Source: an uncultured Nostoc sp. (lineage in GTDB: Bacteria > Cyanobacteriota > Cyanobacteriia > Cyanobacteriales > Nostocaceae). From it: DNA of 64,000 nt. Below the pieces are notes generated by a model. That model did no database searches. It was not told the DNA's origin and saw only the letters and a program-made list of their open reading frames with translations. The stretch is taken from contig NZ_CALMFY010000243.1 of the NCBI RefSeq assembly GCF_937863485.1, positions 1 through 64,000 of the forward strand. The letters run 5' to 3'. The stretch's first letter is position 1; each line of letters starts with the position of its first letter. A program made the position numbers and the translations under genes. Shown piece by piece: positions 9,486 through 37,146 of this stretch.

Positions 9486-9558
9486 GTTTGATTAGCTCAG
9501 TTGGTAGAGCAATCGACTCATAATCGATGCGTCACAGGTTCGAGTCCTGTATCAAACC
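9486..9558 (+). tRNA. tRNA with CAU anticodon (Met or Ile2)
   Basis: All four arms can be drawn. The 7-bp acceptor GTTTGAT (9486-9492) pairs perfectly with ATCAAAC (9551-9557). The D stem is GCTC/GAGC, and the anticodon stem ATCGA/TCGAT encloses the loop CTCATAA with anticodon CAT (9519-9521). The T stem ACAGG/CCTGT has loop TTCGAGT. CCA follows in the DNA (9559-9561) if the discriminator base is C9558, which is unusual for tRNA-Met or tRNA-Ile. The anticodon stem lacks the three G-C pairs of initiator tRNA. The gene lies two bases from a second CAU tRNA, like a tRNA array rather than a chromosomal core tRNA. Confidence 0.8.
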
Positions 9559-9560
9559 CC

Positions 9561-9632
9561 AGGAAGTTAGCTCACTGGTAGAGCAATCGACTCATAATCG
9601 ATGTGTTGTAGGTTCGATTCCTATACTTTCCA
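9561..9632 (+). tRNA. second tRNA with CAU anticodon
   Basis: The anticodon arm is identical to the preceding tRNA (ATCGA, loop CTCATAA, TCGAT), while the other arms differ: acceptor AGGAAGT / ACTTTCC with a G-T pair and a mismatch at the first pair, D arm GCTC ACTGGTA GAGC, T stem GTAGG/CCTAT with loop TTCGATT. Discriminator A9632 is followed by an encoded CCA. It is tandem with the first tRNA, two bases away. The imperfect acceptor suggests slight decay, but processing and aminoacylation could still be possible. Confidence 0.75.
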
Positions 9633-24478: not shown

Positions 24479-26023
24479 CTATTCCTTATTCCCTAATTCC
24501 TTAACGTATTGCTCGTAAAACTCCAAAGCAACCTTCTCAATCACGTCGTAAGCTTCAACAGTCTGTATTCCAGCTTTTTGCAATTTTTCTTGAGGACTGT
24601 TACCAATCTTGGAGGCTAAAACTGCTTTGCAATCTGCGATCGCTTTCATAATATGCTCAAAAGAAGCTTCCTCGCCGTATCCACTTTGGCAGTATTGGTC
24701 AATTTTGCGATGACCGACAAAGCGAACTTCGCTACCATCCACTTCGTAAATTTGGAATTCTTTCGCATGACCGAAGTGCTGGTTAACCAATCCGCCGCCT
24801 TTGGTTGCTACTGCAACAAGGACTTTGGGATTGTTGGCAAATTTCTTGCCGACTAGCGCCTTGTCTTTGGCTACTTTCAGTTCTTCTTTAAACTTCTCAA
24901 TACCGTCGTGAACTTCTTGGCGTTTGTCCATGTCGTATTCTGGAGTCATTTCCAAGAATTTCTCTTTGGAAAATTCTTGGCTGCGGTCTTCTCCCAATAA
25001 TCCGACTGCATCGGCACGGCACTGGCGACAGTGACGCATCATTTTCATGTTACCAGAGCAATTGTCTTGAACTTCTTTGAGTTCTTTGGGTGTGGGGCCG
25101 CGTTGACCGGTTAAACCGAAGTGTGTGCCATGTTCTGGTGCAGAAATCAATGGCATGATGTTGTGCAAGAATGCACCTTTTTCACGAATGACTCGATTCA
25201 CTTCGACTAAGTGCTGGTCATTAATTCCGGGAATCATCACGGAGTTAACTTTGCACAAGATGTCAGCATCTTTCAGGGCTTGCAATCCTTCCATCTGTCT
25301 TTCGTGGAGAATTTTCGCGCCTTCAAGACCTCTGTAACGCTTGCGCTTGTAGTGAACCCAAGGATAAATCTTAGCACCGATCTCTGGATCTACCATGTTA
25401 ATGGTGATCGTAACGTGATCTATATTTAATTGTTTAATGCGATCGATGTAGTCAGGCAGCATTAAACCATTGGTTGATAAGCATAGCTTAATATCTGGTG
25501 CTTGCTCTGCAATCAACTCAAATGTGCGGAAAGTCTTATCTGGGTTCGCCAGTGGGTCGCCAGGGCCGGCAATTCCCACAACTGTCATTTGGGGTATCTT
25601 GCCGCCAATGACCAAAGCTTTGTGTGCTGCTTGTTCTGGTGTTAGCAATTCGCTAACTACTCCAGGACGGCTTTCGTTAGCGCAGTCATATTTGCGGTTG
25701 CAATAGTTGCATTGAATGTTGCAGGCTGGAGCAACTGCAACGTGCATCCGCGCGTAGTGGTGATGAGCGTCTTCGCTGTAGCAGGGATGTTTAGCAATGC
25801 GTTCTTCGAGCGTTTCATCCCTTTCCACGGTGGCGCTGCTGGTGCTGTCGCAGCCGCAACCACCTGATTTTGCTTGGGTTGGCGATTCCGTAGCGTTAGA
25901 GTTGAGGAGTCGTGTAGACGGTGATGTCATTGAGTTTCGCAAAAGGTCGGTGGACTTGGCTGCCACTGTGGGAGATGCTGTTGCTACTCTTTCATGCCCA
26001 GGAATTGAAGTCGCGTTTTCCAC
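24479..26023 (-). CDS. nifB: FeMo-cofactor biosynthesis radical SAM protein NifB
   Basis: NifB fuses two [4Fe-4S] clusters and inserts the central carbide to make NifB-co, the precursor of FeMo-co. The 514-aa sequence has a variable N-terminus with a Cys-containing GGCGCDS, then [24 protein letters not shown] with the radical SAM motif CNIQCNYC (Cx3Cx2C) near residue 100, and accessory cysteines in [13 protein letters not shown]-terminal NifX-like domain (about 400-514) has [26 protein letters not shown]. It is the first gene of the minus-strand cluster; the likely control region is at 26288-26516. Confidence 0.98.
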
Positions 26024-26287
26024 ACTGCCTGCAAACCCTTGGGTTCGGGCGACTTGTGTTCAAGTAGGGCAGGCGATAGATATTTGATGTTCGGCTGGTG
26101 TGTGTCAATGTTCGGTTCTTGGGTAGAATTTGTGCTTACAGCCGCGACTTCTATTCACTTCAGGCATGGTGCTATGTCATCCCTCCACTCACTCTTCGCT
26201 TCGTTTTGTGTTGGAGCGTTAAGTGATTGGCGATATAAGAGTTATATCAGCCGTCTCCTAGCCAGACGGTGCGTCTATCTAGGATAG

Positions 26288-26516
26288 AATTTATTGGATT
26301 TATTACGCTTGTACTCAAATAATAAAAACCCTAATTCTTCAAGCATTACAAGAATTAAAAAATTTTTTTTCAGGTAGGGGTTCTAGTATTTTTTGGTTGG
26401 GGTTCTAGTGTTTATGGACAGGGGTTCAGGATTTATTTGTACTCAGCCCAAATCCTATTCCAGCAAGGAATTTAATCTACTTGCAACTGGGTTTGGGTTA
26501 TTTTAATGTGTACTCA
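26288..26516 (-). promoter_or_regulatory. probable nifB promoter with motifs shared with nifP
   Basis: Read on the minus strand the region contains three TGAGTACA-type sites (reverse of 26509-26516, 26437-26445 and 26309-26317), a group of three CCCC boxes (ACTAGAACCCC reverse of 26373-26388 and 26395-26410, plus a GAACCCCTGTCC form at 26416-26427), and finally AATAAATCCAATAAA next to the last TGAGTACAA. The same parts occur upstream of nifP in the same final order. CnfR/PatB is known from published work to activate nifB and nifP promoters, so this is a good candidate for its target, but direct binding is inference. The region lies 265-495 bp upstream of the nifB start. Confidence 0.65.
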
Positions 26517-33213: not shown

Positions 33214-33435
33214 ATCCACCTCTAAACTCCGTCAACGAGTCTTTGAACTGGATAAATCCACCTCTAAACTCCGTCGTCGAGTATTTGAACTGGATGAATC
33301 CACCTCTGAACTCCGTCGTCGAGTATTTGAACTGGATGAATCCACCTCTGAACTCCGTCAACGAGTCTTTGAACTGGATGAATCCACCTTTTATCTCCGT
33401 CGCCGAGTATTTGAACTGGATGAATCCACTTCTAC
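33214..33435 (+). repeat. 42-bp minisatellite, five units plus a partial sixth
   Basis: The units begin at 33214, 33256, 33298, 33340 and 33382, each starting ATCCACCTCT and containing GAGTATTTGAACTGGATGAA or a close variant; a partial unit follows at 33424. As 42 is a multiple of three, one frame gives a 14-residue repeat (LRRRVFELDESTSE) open over the whole array, but I find no ATG, GTG or TTG in that frame upstream. Variation between units is low and most changes are conservative in this frame. It lies in the 1.1-kb gap before nifP. Confidence 0.88.
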
Positions 33436-33740: not shown

Positions 33741-33976
33741 TTTGAGTGCATCTGAGTACAACTTAATCTATTGCAAAATCTCTTGACTAAATCTTAGCAA
33801 ACTCTTACAGGTAAAGTTTCTTGTAGCGAGTACAGAAATTCTTAAACCCTGCCCCAAAAATACTAGTACCCCTATCATTAAATACTAGCGCCCCTACCCC
33901 AAGACATATTTTAAGTTTATCTTAAGTCGGAGTTTCGGCGTTTGAGTACAACTTTAATCAATCCAATAAATCCAAT
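33741..33976 (+). promoter_or_regulatory. probable nifP promoter with motifs shared with nifB
   Basis: TGAGTACAA occurs at 33753-33761 and 33943-33951. CCCC boxes TACTAGTACCCCT (33861-33873) and TACTAGCGCCCCTACCCC (33883-33900) lie between, and AATCCAATAAATCC follows the second TGAGTACAA. This is the same set and final order as upstream of nifB on the minus strand (26288-26516). The nifP ATG is about 110 bp downstream of the last TGAGTACAA. The parallel suggests one activator for both units, with CnfR/PatB as the known candidate. Confidence 0.65.
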
Positions 33977-34063
33977 CAGCATTGGGTTTCCTGTCCAGTT
34001 GGAAGTCGCCTGATATAAGCATAAAAATAGCACAAGGCTCTTTCAACCAGATAGACAGTACCG

Positions 34064-34825
34064 ATGCAACAGTCTTTAGACAATATCAAGAATCCCCAGA
34101 CTATCAAAACGCAGGATTCTGCACATACATCCCTGCTGAAAAATCTCTTCTCTGGCGTTTTTTTTGAGCCATTATTGAGTGATTTTCGCATTATCTTTGA
34201 GCGCGATCCAGCAGCATGTAATTGGCTAGAGGTGGTGTTTTGCTATCCCGGATTGCACGCACTCTGTTTGCATCGTCTTGCTCACTGGTTACATGGTCGA
34301 GGAGTGGGTTTTATTCCCCGGTTTATTTCTCATTTAGGACGATTTTTGACCGGAATTGAAATTCACCCAGGTGCAGAGATTGGTCAGGGTGTGTTTATCG
34401 ACCACGGAATGGGTGTTGTGATTGGCGAAACTGCGATCGTGGGCGACTATACACTGATTTACCAGGGCGTCACCCTTGGCGGGACTGGTAAACAAAGCGG
34501 TAAGCGTCATCCCACAGTGGGTAAAAATGCAGTGATCGGGGCGGGTGCGAAAGTTTTGGGTAATCTTGAAATTGGCGATCGCGTCCGTATTGGTGCAGGT
34601 TCGATTGTCTTACGGAATATCCCCAGCGATTGCACAGTCGTGGGAGTTCCCGGTCGAATTATTTCCCGAAATGAAAACGCCAGCCTTTCTCCTTTAGAAC
34701 ATGGAAAGCTACCCGATGTGGAAGCAACGGTGATTTATTCTTTGCTCTCACGCATTGAACAACTCGAAAAACAACTGCAAACTTTAGAAATGAGGAAACA
34801 GCAGACAGGAGTTAGTAGTAAGTAA
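34064..34825 (+). CDS. nifP: serine O-acetyltransferase, nif-linked
   Basis: The enzyme makes O-acetylserine, the precursor of cysteine, and the nif-linked form is thought to boost cysteine supply for Fe-S cluster assembly. The 253-aa protein is a CysE-type left-handed beta-helix transferase: [28 protein letters not shown], then the hexapeptide-repeat core [23 protein letters not shown] (catalytic Asp-His), [19 protein letters not shown] and a C-terminal [10 protein letters not shown]. Residues 1-30 are an extra, poorly conserved stretch. It stands at the head of the nifP...nifVZT block and has the shared promoter module upstream. Standard CysE cannot be excluded from sequence alone, but context favours nifP. 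Confidence 0.92.
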
Positions 34826-36012: not shown

Positions 36013-37146
36013 ATGAATCAAATCATAATTAATGACACTACATTGCGTGATGGCGAACAAGCAGCAGGTGTTGCTTTTAACCTAGAAGAAAAAGTAGCGA
36101 TCGCTAAATTTCTCGATGCCATTGGTATTCCCGAATTAGAAGTTGGTATACCAGCAATGGGTGACGAAGAAACACGAGCGATCGCAGCAATTTCTAACTT
36201 AGATTTACAAGCAAAACTCCTGGGCTGGAACCGTGCTGTGATCTCAGATATTAAGGCTTCTATCGCTTGCGGTCTGAACCGGGTGCATATCGCCATTCCC
36301 GTCTCTGGTATCCAAATCGCCGCCAAATTCCACGGTCAATGGCGAGTAAGTTTGCAAAAACTCAAAGACTGTATCAGCTTCGCCGTCGATCAAGGTCTTT
36401 GGGTAGCAGTCGGCGGAGAAGATTCTTCTAGGGCTGATGAAAACTTTCTCTTAGATGTAGCACTTTATGCTCAAGAATGGGGTGCATCTCGGTTCCGCTT
36501 CTGCGATACCGTAGGAGTTCTCGATCCTTTCACGACCTACACAAAGGTCAAACGGCTGGTTTCAGCTTTGATGATTCCCCTAGAAATCCACACCCACAAT
36601 GATTTTGGTCTGGCAACAGCGAATGCCCTTGCGGGTATCAAAGCTGGAGCCTTATCAGTGAATACCACAGTCAACGGATTGGGTGAAAGGGCGGGAAATG
36701 CAGCGCTAGAAGAAGTTGTGATGGCGATTAAACGCATCTATGGCGTTGATTTGGGTATCAACACTCGCAGTTTGCTGGAACTGTCTCAACTAGTTGCAGC
36801 TGCATCAGGTGCAGATGTACCACCCTGGAAAGCGATCGTTGGCGAAAATACCTTTGCTCACGAATCTGGCATTCATGCTCACGGAGTACTACAAAACCCC
36901 ATCACCTACGAACCATTTGCTCCCGAAGAGGTGGGTTGGGAACGGCGTTTAGTATTAGGAAAACATTCTGGACGGCATTTGGTTTCAAACTTGCTAGAGC
37001 AGCATGGAATTTTCTTGAACTCTCAAGAAACCCAGTCTGTTTTAGACGCAGTGCGCCATCAATCGGTACAGAAAAAACGCAGCCTGACTACAGAAGAACT
37101 ATTAAATTTGGTCAGAGAACAGAGGTATTCTCATGCAACGCGATGA
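36013..37146 (+). CDS. nifV: homocitrate synthase
   Basis: NifV condenses acetyl-CoA with 2-oxoglutarate to homocitrate, the organic ligand of FeMo-co. The 377-aa protein is a TIM-barrel member of the isopropylmalate/homocitrate synthase family: LRDGEQAAGVAF (catalytic Arg-Asp at the N-terminus), the metal-binding HTHNDFGLATANALAGIKAG, VNTTVNGLGERAGNAALEE and GENTFAHESGIHAHGVL. nifZ starts inside its last 14 bp, so they form an operon with nifT. The family includes LeuA; the homocitrate-specific call is from the nifZT context and short C-terminus, which lacks the LeuA regulatory domain. Confidence 0.96.
   Translation: MNQIIINDTTLRDGEQAAGVAFNLEEKVAIAKFLDAIGIPELEVGIPAMGDEETRAIAAISNLDLQAKLLGWNRAVISDIKASIACGLNRVHIAIPVSGIQIAAKFHGQWRVSLQKLKDCISFAVDQGLWVAVGGEDSSRADENFLLDVALYAQEWGASRFRFCDTVGVLDPFTTYTKVKRLVSALMIPLEIHTHNDFGLATANALAGIKAGALSVNTTVNGLGERAGNAALEEVVMAIKRIYGVDLGINTRSLLELSQLVAAASGADVPPWKAIVGENTFAHESGIHAHGVLQNPITYEPFAPEEVGWERRLVLGKHSGRHLVSNLLEQHGIFLNSQETQSVLDAVRHQSVQKKRSLTTEELLNLVREQRYSHATR

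Follow-up and report, generated by a model that had tools for sequence, protein, structure and literature searches.

The nifB (minus strand) and nifP (plus strand) genes of this Nostoc genome are carriers of one common promoter module within the window, the 64,000-nucleotide stretch of DNA that we analyzed. Read from its upstream end toward the gene, the module comprises GAGTACA copies, three 22-bp repeats of the AAATACTAGnnCCCC type, a linker, a proximal box (TGAGTACAA-N8-AATCCAATAAA), and an extended -10 element (TGATATAA) (Table 1). In our judgment it is highly probable that each module is the promoter of a nif operon, that the regulator CnfR recognizes it as a composite site, and that its two halves cooperate across a helically phased linker.

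Table 1. Parts of the nifB and nifP modules and neighboring genes, in window coordinates
Feature	Position	Strand	Basis or detail
nifB coding frame	24479..26023	-	TIGR01290 nifB 683.7 bits, cut-off 343.65; GTG start from a mechanical ORF
CGCCAA, nifB-type feature in the expected start region	26227..26232	-	CGCCNA statistics
Extended -10 TGATATAA, nifB promoter	26242..26249	-	68 bp from proximal TGAGTACAA
nifB proximal box TGAGTACAA-N8-AATCCAATAAA	26290..26317	-	AATCCAATAAA 26290-26300, TGAGTACAA 26309-26317
nifB linker, long class, 74 bp (last-repeat start to proximal box)	26318..26369	-	
nifB three 22-bp repeats (AAATCCTGAACCCC, AAACACTAGAACCCC, AAATACTAGAACCCC)	26370..26435	-	ACTAGnnCCCC 26399-26409, 26377-26387; TRF
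nifB distal TGAGTACAA (site 2)	26437..26445	-	
nifB far distal TGAGTACA (site 1)	26509..26516	-	
nifP far distal TGAGTACAA (site 1)	33753..33761	+	
nifP distal GAGTACA, (C)GAGTACA (site 2)	33828..33834	+	
nifP three 22-bp repeats, first degenerate	33836..33901	+	ACTAGnnCCCC at 33862 and 33884
nifP linker, short class, 63 bp (last-repeat start to proximal box)	33902..33942	+	
nifP proximal box TGAGTACAA-N8-AATCCAATAAA	33943..33970	+	TGAGTACAA 33943, AATCCAATAAA 33960
Extended -10 TGATATAA (TATAAGCA class), nifP promoter	34011..34018	+	68 bp from proximal box
nifP, CysE-type serine O-acetyltransferase	34064..34825	+	TIGR01172 243.1 bits, cut-off 210.65
nifV	36013-37146		TIGR02660

The original prediction had proposed a multi-part module common to both genes, and all of its motifs lie where it had placed them, in the order claimed. 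Its spelling of the motifs was less exact: positions and order stand, but the first nifB box reads CACTAG rather than TACTAG, and at nifP the middle copy reads CGAGTACAG. Absent from it and found here are the extended -10, the 22-bp period, and the weaker first repeat. When the two modules are aligned, the "TACTAG" boxes prove to belong to an array of three repeats with a 22-bp period, of which they are the second and third, the first being weaker, and degenerate in the nifP array; TRF independently assigns the nifB array a period of 22 with 2.8 copies (26376-26436). Measured at nifB and nifP respectively, the repeat period is 22 and 22 bp, the distance from TGAGTACAA to AATCCAATAAA 17 and 17, from proximal TGAGTACAA to the extended -10 TGATATAA 68 and 68, from site 2 to the last repeat 53 and 52, and from site 1 to site 2 71 and 74. 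The large difference is in the linker, at 74 and 63 bp. Relative to start sites predicted from the -10, the proximal box would lie at about -80 and the whole module about 80-280 bp upstream. The CysE-type gene stands before nifV and is therefore named nifP. The nifB leader also contains a 20-codon open frame (26105-26167, minus strand), a tandem array with a 42-bp unit (5.3 copies, 90% match, 33214-33434) lies upstream of the nifP module, and two adjacent tRNA genes (9486-9632) are the window's sole Rfam matches at gathering score.

The original prediction had allowed that such motifs might be as dense in random intergenic DNA; they are in fact commoner than chance in the window (100 shuffles). 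TGAGTACAA occurs 6 times against 0.57 expected, two of the copies lying outside the modules (28019 and 31008), and ACTAGnnCCCC 4 times against 0.28, counts reached in none of the 100 shuffles; AATCCAATAAA occurs twice against 0.12 expected, a count reached in one shuffle of 100. Across the 7.52-Mb genome the core TGAGTACAAN{0,12}ATCCAATAAA occurs twice, only at nifB and nifP, and the reversed core pattern, run as a control, has no match. Could the likeness of the two regions reflect, instead of a functional module, a single intergenic region recently duplicated or copied by gene conversion? In many genomes of the non-heterocystous type the nifB and nifP modules are divergent neighbors, mostly 650-850 bp apart, as such an origin would suggest. 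We nevertheless hold it to be very improbable, given that clear similarity between the two regions of the window extends only over the last repeat (19 bp) and the proximal box (31 bp), the best pairwise matches (E 3e-4; the remaining ones are weaker, E 0.018 and above), and that the motifs and their spacing persist in divergent genomes.

This persistence, which the original prediction had expected of relatives, is extensive. Among the best 80 of 585 loci from a NifB search (58 cyanobacterial and 22 proteobacterial), order and spacing are kept upstream of nifB in 54 of the 58 cyanobacterial loci, 50 recovered by a search anchored on TGAGT and TGnTATAA and 4 more by a search anchored on the proximal half, with one of the 54 represented by its proximal half only and one weak. 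The first of these searches yielded no module at L043, L048, L053, L054, L057, L058, L059, and L060; the second picked up L048, L053, L054 (proximal half only, at a contig end), and L059 (weakly). Of the other four, L057 and L060 begin at nifB and thus have no upstream sequence, L043 is unsettled, and L058 has no module within 1200 bp. None of the 22 proteobacterial nifB loci has a module. A divergent nifP-type module is present in 25 of the 58 cyanobacterial loci, 22 of them also with a nifP match. The nifB and nifP promoters each retain their own start region: CGCCNA within 40 bp from the -10 is found in 40/50 nifB modules versus 0/25 divergent nifP-type modules, and TATAAGCA in 24/25 of the latter versus 0/50 of the former. 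TGnTATAA lies at 66-69 bp in 238 modules, in a search that allowed 60-72. A looser pattern, GAGTAYAN{3,15}TCCAATA, matches in 84 of 292 genomes, many matches being irregularly spaced, and its reversed control matches too; our counts therefore rest on R1, a sequence-only model of the proximal half, and on the anchored modules. Near-identical strings of the GAGTATAnTGnGGnTAATCCAATA type, possibly coding, occur in four genomes (G109:C1, G119:C1, G187:C1, and G157:C35).

Why should the linker, measured between the first base of the last repeat and the proximal box, differ so much between two otherwise similar promoters? We measured it in 95 module-bearing stretches from further genomes, together with other fetched loci, and it falls into two length classes. 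The proximal-half-anchored search gave 226 distinct modules, 225 with upstream sequence, with raw linkers of 61-65 bp in 145, 71-76 bp in 67, and 66-70 bp in none; a further 13 are one or two repeats off and, shifted by 22 or 44 bp, join the same classes. Restricted to a distal score >10, this set (n=176) has short linkers in 106 modules and long ones in 66, the other 4 being one repeat off. A second search was anchored on TGAGT with TGnTATAA 60-72 bp on, without the sequence of the proximal box, at a distal score >=12, and left out L001, L002, L083-L090, and L223-L246 (duplicates of loci already included, or loci fetched for other purposes). It gave 238 distinct modules, with 157 raw linkers at 61-65 bp, 74 at 71-76, none at 66-70, and 7 one repeat off; its distal matrix was trained on modules of the first search, so that the box sequence is not independent, whereas position enters neither matrix. 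After the 22-bp register shift, the short class numbers 163 modules (mean 62.62, sd 0.88) and the long class 75 (mean 73.11, sd 0.93), with one linker at 66 bp and none at 67-70. The class means are 10.49 bp apart, which is one turn of B-DNA.

The two lengths might merely be inherited, from a short and a long ancestral promoter whose exact length is held by stabilizing selection, with no helical phasing involved. Class does largely track gene and clade, most Nostocales nifB modules being long and most nifP modules short. Yet both classes occur at nifB, at nifP, and at the further operon described below. On a quick NifB tree with open forks (47 nifB and 24 nifP labels, including weak modules such as L059, and without L034, L035, L038, L039, L047, L050, and L051, found later), nifB shows at least 5 switches of class and nifP at least 2, and the further operon shows 1 change (L214, linker 73 versus 63 in four congeners). 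In alignments, two recent switches are clean length differences: one nifP module is 11 bp longer than those of its family relatives and the L214 module 10 bp longer than those of its congeners. A similar step is seen between the two upper GAGTRCA sites, which are 70-75 bp apart in 138 cases, 80-84 bp in 9, and 58 bp and 93 bp in one case each. We therefore consider inheritance of two fixed lengths improbable. Rayleigh tests on cluster medians fit periods of 10.5 to 11.5 about equally and do not single out 10.5 bp, so the argument for phasing rests on the 10.49-bp step and the class switches. The pattern suggests that factors on both halves of the module must face the same side of the helix. 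Phasing of the linker in a CnfR element was not found in the open-access passages searched, and the two linker lengths one helical turn apart may be a new part of the picture.

The original prediction named CnfR/PatB as the known controller of nifB and nifP in other cyanobacteria, and such control here finds support in the genome itself, in co-occurrence, and in published CnfR targets. The genome encodes one CnfR/PatB of 555 aa (G000:C198:30271-31935), which carries two 4Fe-4S motifs and, at its C-terminus, an XRE-type HTH; both Pfam domains, Fer4 and HTH_3, score above their cut-offs. The gene was located via Pfam Fer4_7, and a cysteine regex for cnfR had no match in the flanks of the nifB loci. 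We ran R1 and the CnfR protein each over 388 genomes of the class, incomplete genomes included. At R1 E<=1e-4, where 123 of the 388 have the module, and CnfR E<=1e-120, 115 genomes carry module and CnfR together, 8 carry the module alone, 6 CnfR alone, and 259 neither, an agreement of 374/388 at cut-offs chosen after the E-values had been seen. With CnfR relaxed to <=1e-30 the counts are 120, 3, 43, and 222 in the same order, and with R1 relaxed to <=0.01 (CnfR <=1e-120) they are 117, 24, 4, and 243. Co-occurrence supports a direct link between module and CnfR without proving contact, because both are inherited with nif.

A factor other than CnfR could bind the repeats or GAGTACA, with CnfR acting indirectly or at one sub-motif only. 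None of our computed results ties a sub-motif to a protein, and 8 genomes have the module without CnfR at the cut-off used, two of which (G129 and G551) have partial CnfR matches. Against this stands the activity of CnfR in a foreign host: open-access passages on Leptolyngbya boryana report that CnfR activates its divergent PnifB and PnifP also in non-diazotrophic Synechocystis 6803 (PMC5943405), and any partner must therefore be general. On balance we think another factor unlikely, though less so than inheritance of two fixed lengths. An element of this kind has moreover been named as a CnfR target at nifB/nifP in accessible parts of two studies (PMC5943405, PMC8510180), and we infer that CnfR binds at the nifB/nifP locus of this organism as well.

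The mechanism that we propose runs as follows. An extended -10 with a proximal box (TGAGTACAA...AATCCAATAAA) 68 bp upstream would work with a dedicated activator. Further up would act the three-repeat, 22-bp array with GAGTACA at its head and, about 72 bp beyond that, a second GAGTACA. It is very likely that the Fe-S regulator CnfR (PatB) binds this composite site, touching one or another of its sub-motifs, and brings RNA polymerase to the promoter. Factors that occupy the distal array and the proximal box, set on the same face of the helix, might then contact each other or the polymerase across the linker; a linker of about 63 or about 73 bp would follow from this proposed need for both halves to face the same side.

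The module is not confined to nifB and nifP. A third R1 site in the same genome (G000:C198:44632-44712, E 4.5e-10) is a full module: it has three repeats, an extended -10, and a linker of 63 bp. Between it and cnfR, 13 kb away, are genes that, as read from the sequence, are probably cox. Behind the module stand six genes, encoding proteins of 140, 93, 103, and 111 aa without a Pfam match, a luciferase-like oxidoreductase (PF00296), and a 124-aa protein, again without a Pfam match. In the window's family the operon genes follow the third site in 20/20 genomes checked, of 24 available (the sites in G064, G078, G127, and G155 lie outside the 20), although single genes were not found in some; in G174 the module is seen by R1 only (E 2.0e-6). 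The 111-aa protein occurs in 17/194 class genomes, 17/17 with an R1 match, and in three genomes outside the window's order (G060, G383, and G347) its gene lies 1-3 kb from cnfR. The window's own genome holds two more copies of the 111-aa gene, one on contig C200 (L246:2118-2447), 2 kb before a second nifV, and a partial one with a stop on C61 (L245:3785-3970), where nifV and the luciferase-like gene also have short matches close by. R1 had no match on contigs C200 and C61, and a plasmid search for the 103-aa protein had none either. An assignment of the 111-aa protein as NifU-like was rejected, as no family supports it, and weak MotX matches in the PDB (best E 0.0056) were not taken as meaningful.

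By gene order and description, the further operon is apparently alr2522-alr2527 of Nostoc PCC 7120, which likewise combines unknown proteins with a luciferase-alpha-like one. We also considered an extended hyp operon, asr0689-alr0693, and rejected it: the proteins described for it are of membrane, TPR, NifU-like, and NHL types, whereas the operon here has a luciferase-like protein and five without a Pfam match. In the accessible parts of earlier studies, alr2522-alr2527 is down 4.1-fold in a cse mutant, together with patB and nifB (PMC7065334 Table 1), asr2523 belongs to a nitrogen-fixation co-occurrence module (PMC5862535), and asr2523 and alr2524 appear in a list of genes that N2-fixing species have (PMC2821919 Table 5), the last study suggesting for alr2522 a polysaccharide role instead. 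No promoter or CnfR link is described for alr2522-alr2527 in these open-access passages, nor was CnfR control of the further operon found in the other open-access passages searched, and the module before it may also be new. In four other genomes (L211, L220, L222, and L206) a further R1 site, weak in L222 and L206 (E 0.002 and 7e-4), precedes a ParB-like gene near cnfR; the one such protein tested matches PF02195 and PF17762.

Taken further, we think it rather likely that the CnfR promoter works as an enhancer-like composite with helical phasing, in which complexes on the 22-bp repeat array and on the proximal box touch across a linker able to change only by whole turns, and that it also drives the alr2522-alr2527-type operon in heterocyst formers and the ParB-like gene next to cnfR in some other genomes, which would make those proteins candidate nitrogen-fixation factors. 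The element as such is known; the findings bear on how CnfR activates, from a far-upstream composite site, a promoter that lacks a -35. A linker that shifts only by about one helical turn makes phasing directly testable and would provide a design rule for nif clusters in new hosts, and the further module marks a conserved operon, whose proteins have no known function, as a candidate member of the nitrogenase program.

The nifB/nifP element is of a kind already represented by the CnfR-dependent elements of L. boryana and the nifB1/nifB2 sites of Anabaena variabilis. Tsujimoto, Kamiya, and Fujita reportedly described in 2016 a multi-motif element at L. boryana nifB/nifP that is recognized by CnfR, about 76 bp upstream of the start sites. 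That cis-element, like the one here, combines several motifs upstream of both nifB and nifP, and its reported position is near that of the proximal box; in L. boryana, however, the two genes diverge from one intergenic region, whereas here they are 7.6 kb apart. Motifs I to IX of the L. boryana element are mentioned in open-access passages (PMC5943405). The conserved sites CS1-CS3 and the TGAGTATA motif (named in the Figure 11 legend of PMC4284476) at A. variabilis nifB1/nifB2 resemble the present module in that a heterocyst nifB is preceded by conserved motifs and has an extended -10 but lacks a -35 (PMC8510180 for the promoter elements). The open-access passages of these studies (PMC8510180, PMC4284476) describe no nifP module, 22-bp array, or linker classes. 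They do report that nifB1 transcription falls by ~50% when either of two conserved sites is lost and by 75% when both are (PMC8510180). The three conserved sites of A. variabilis lie, by the same accessible account, 300-600 bp upstream of the start sites (PMC8510180), whereas the module here, with the start predicted from its -10, would span a region roughly 80-280 bp upstream.
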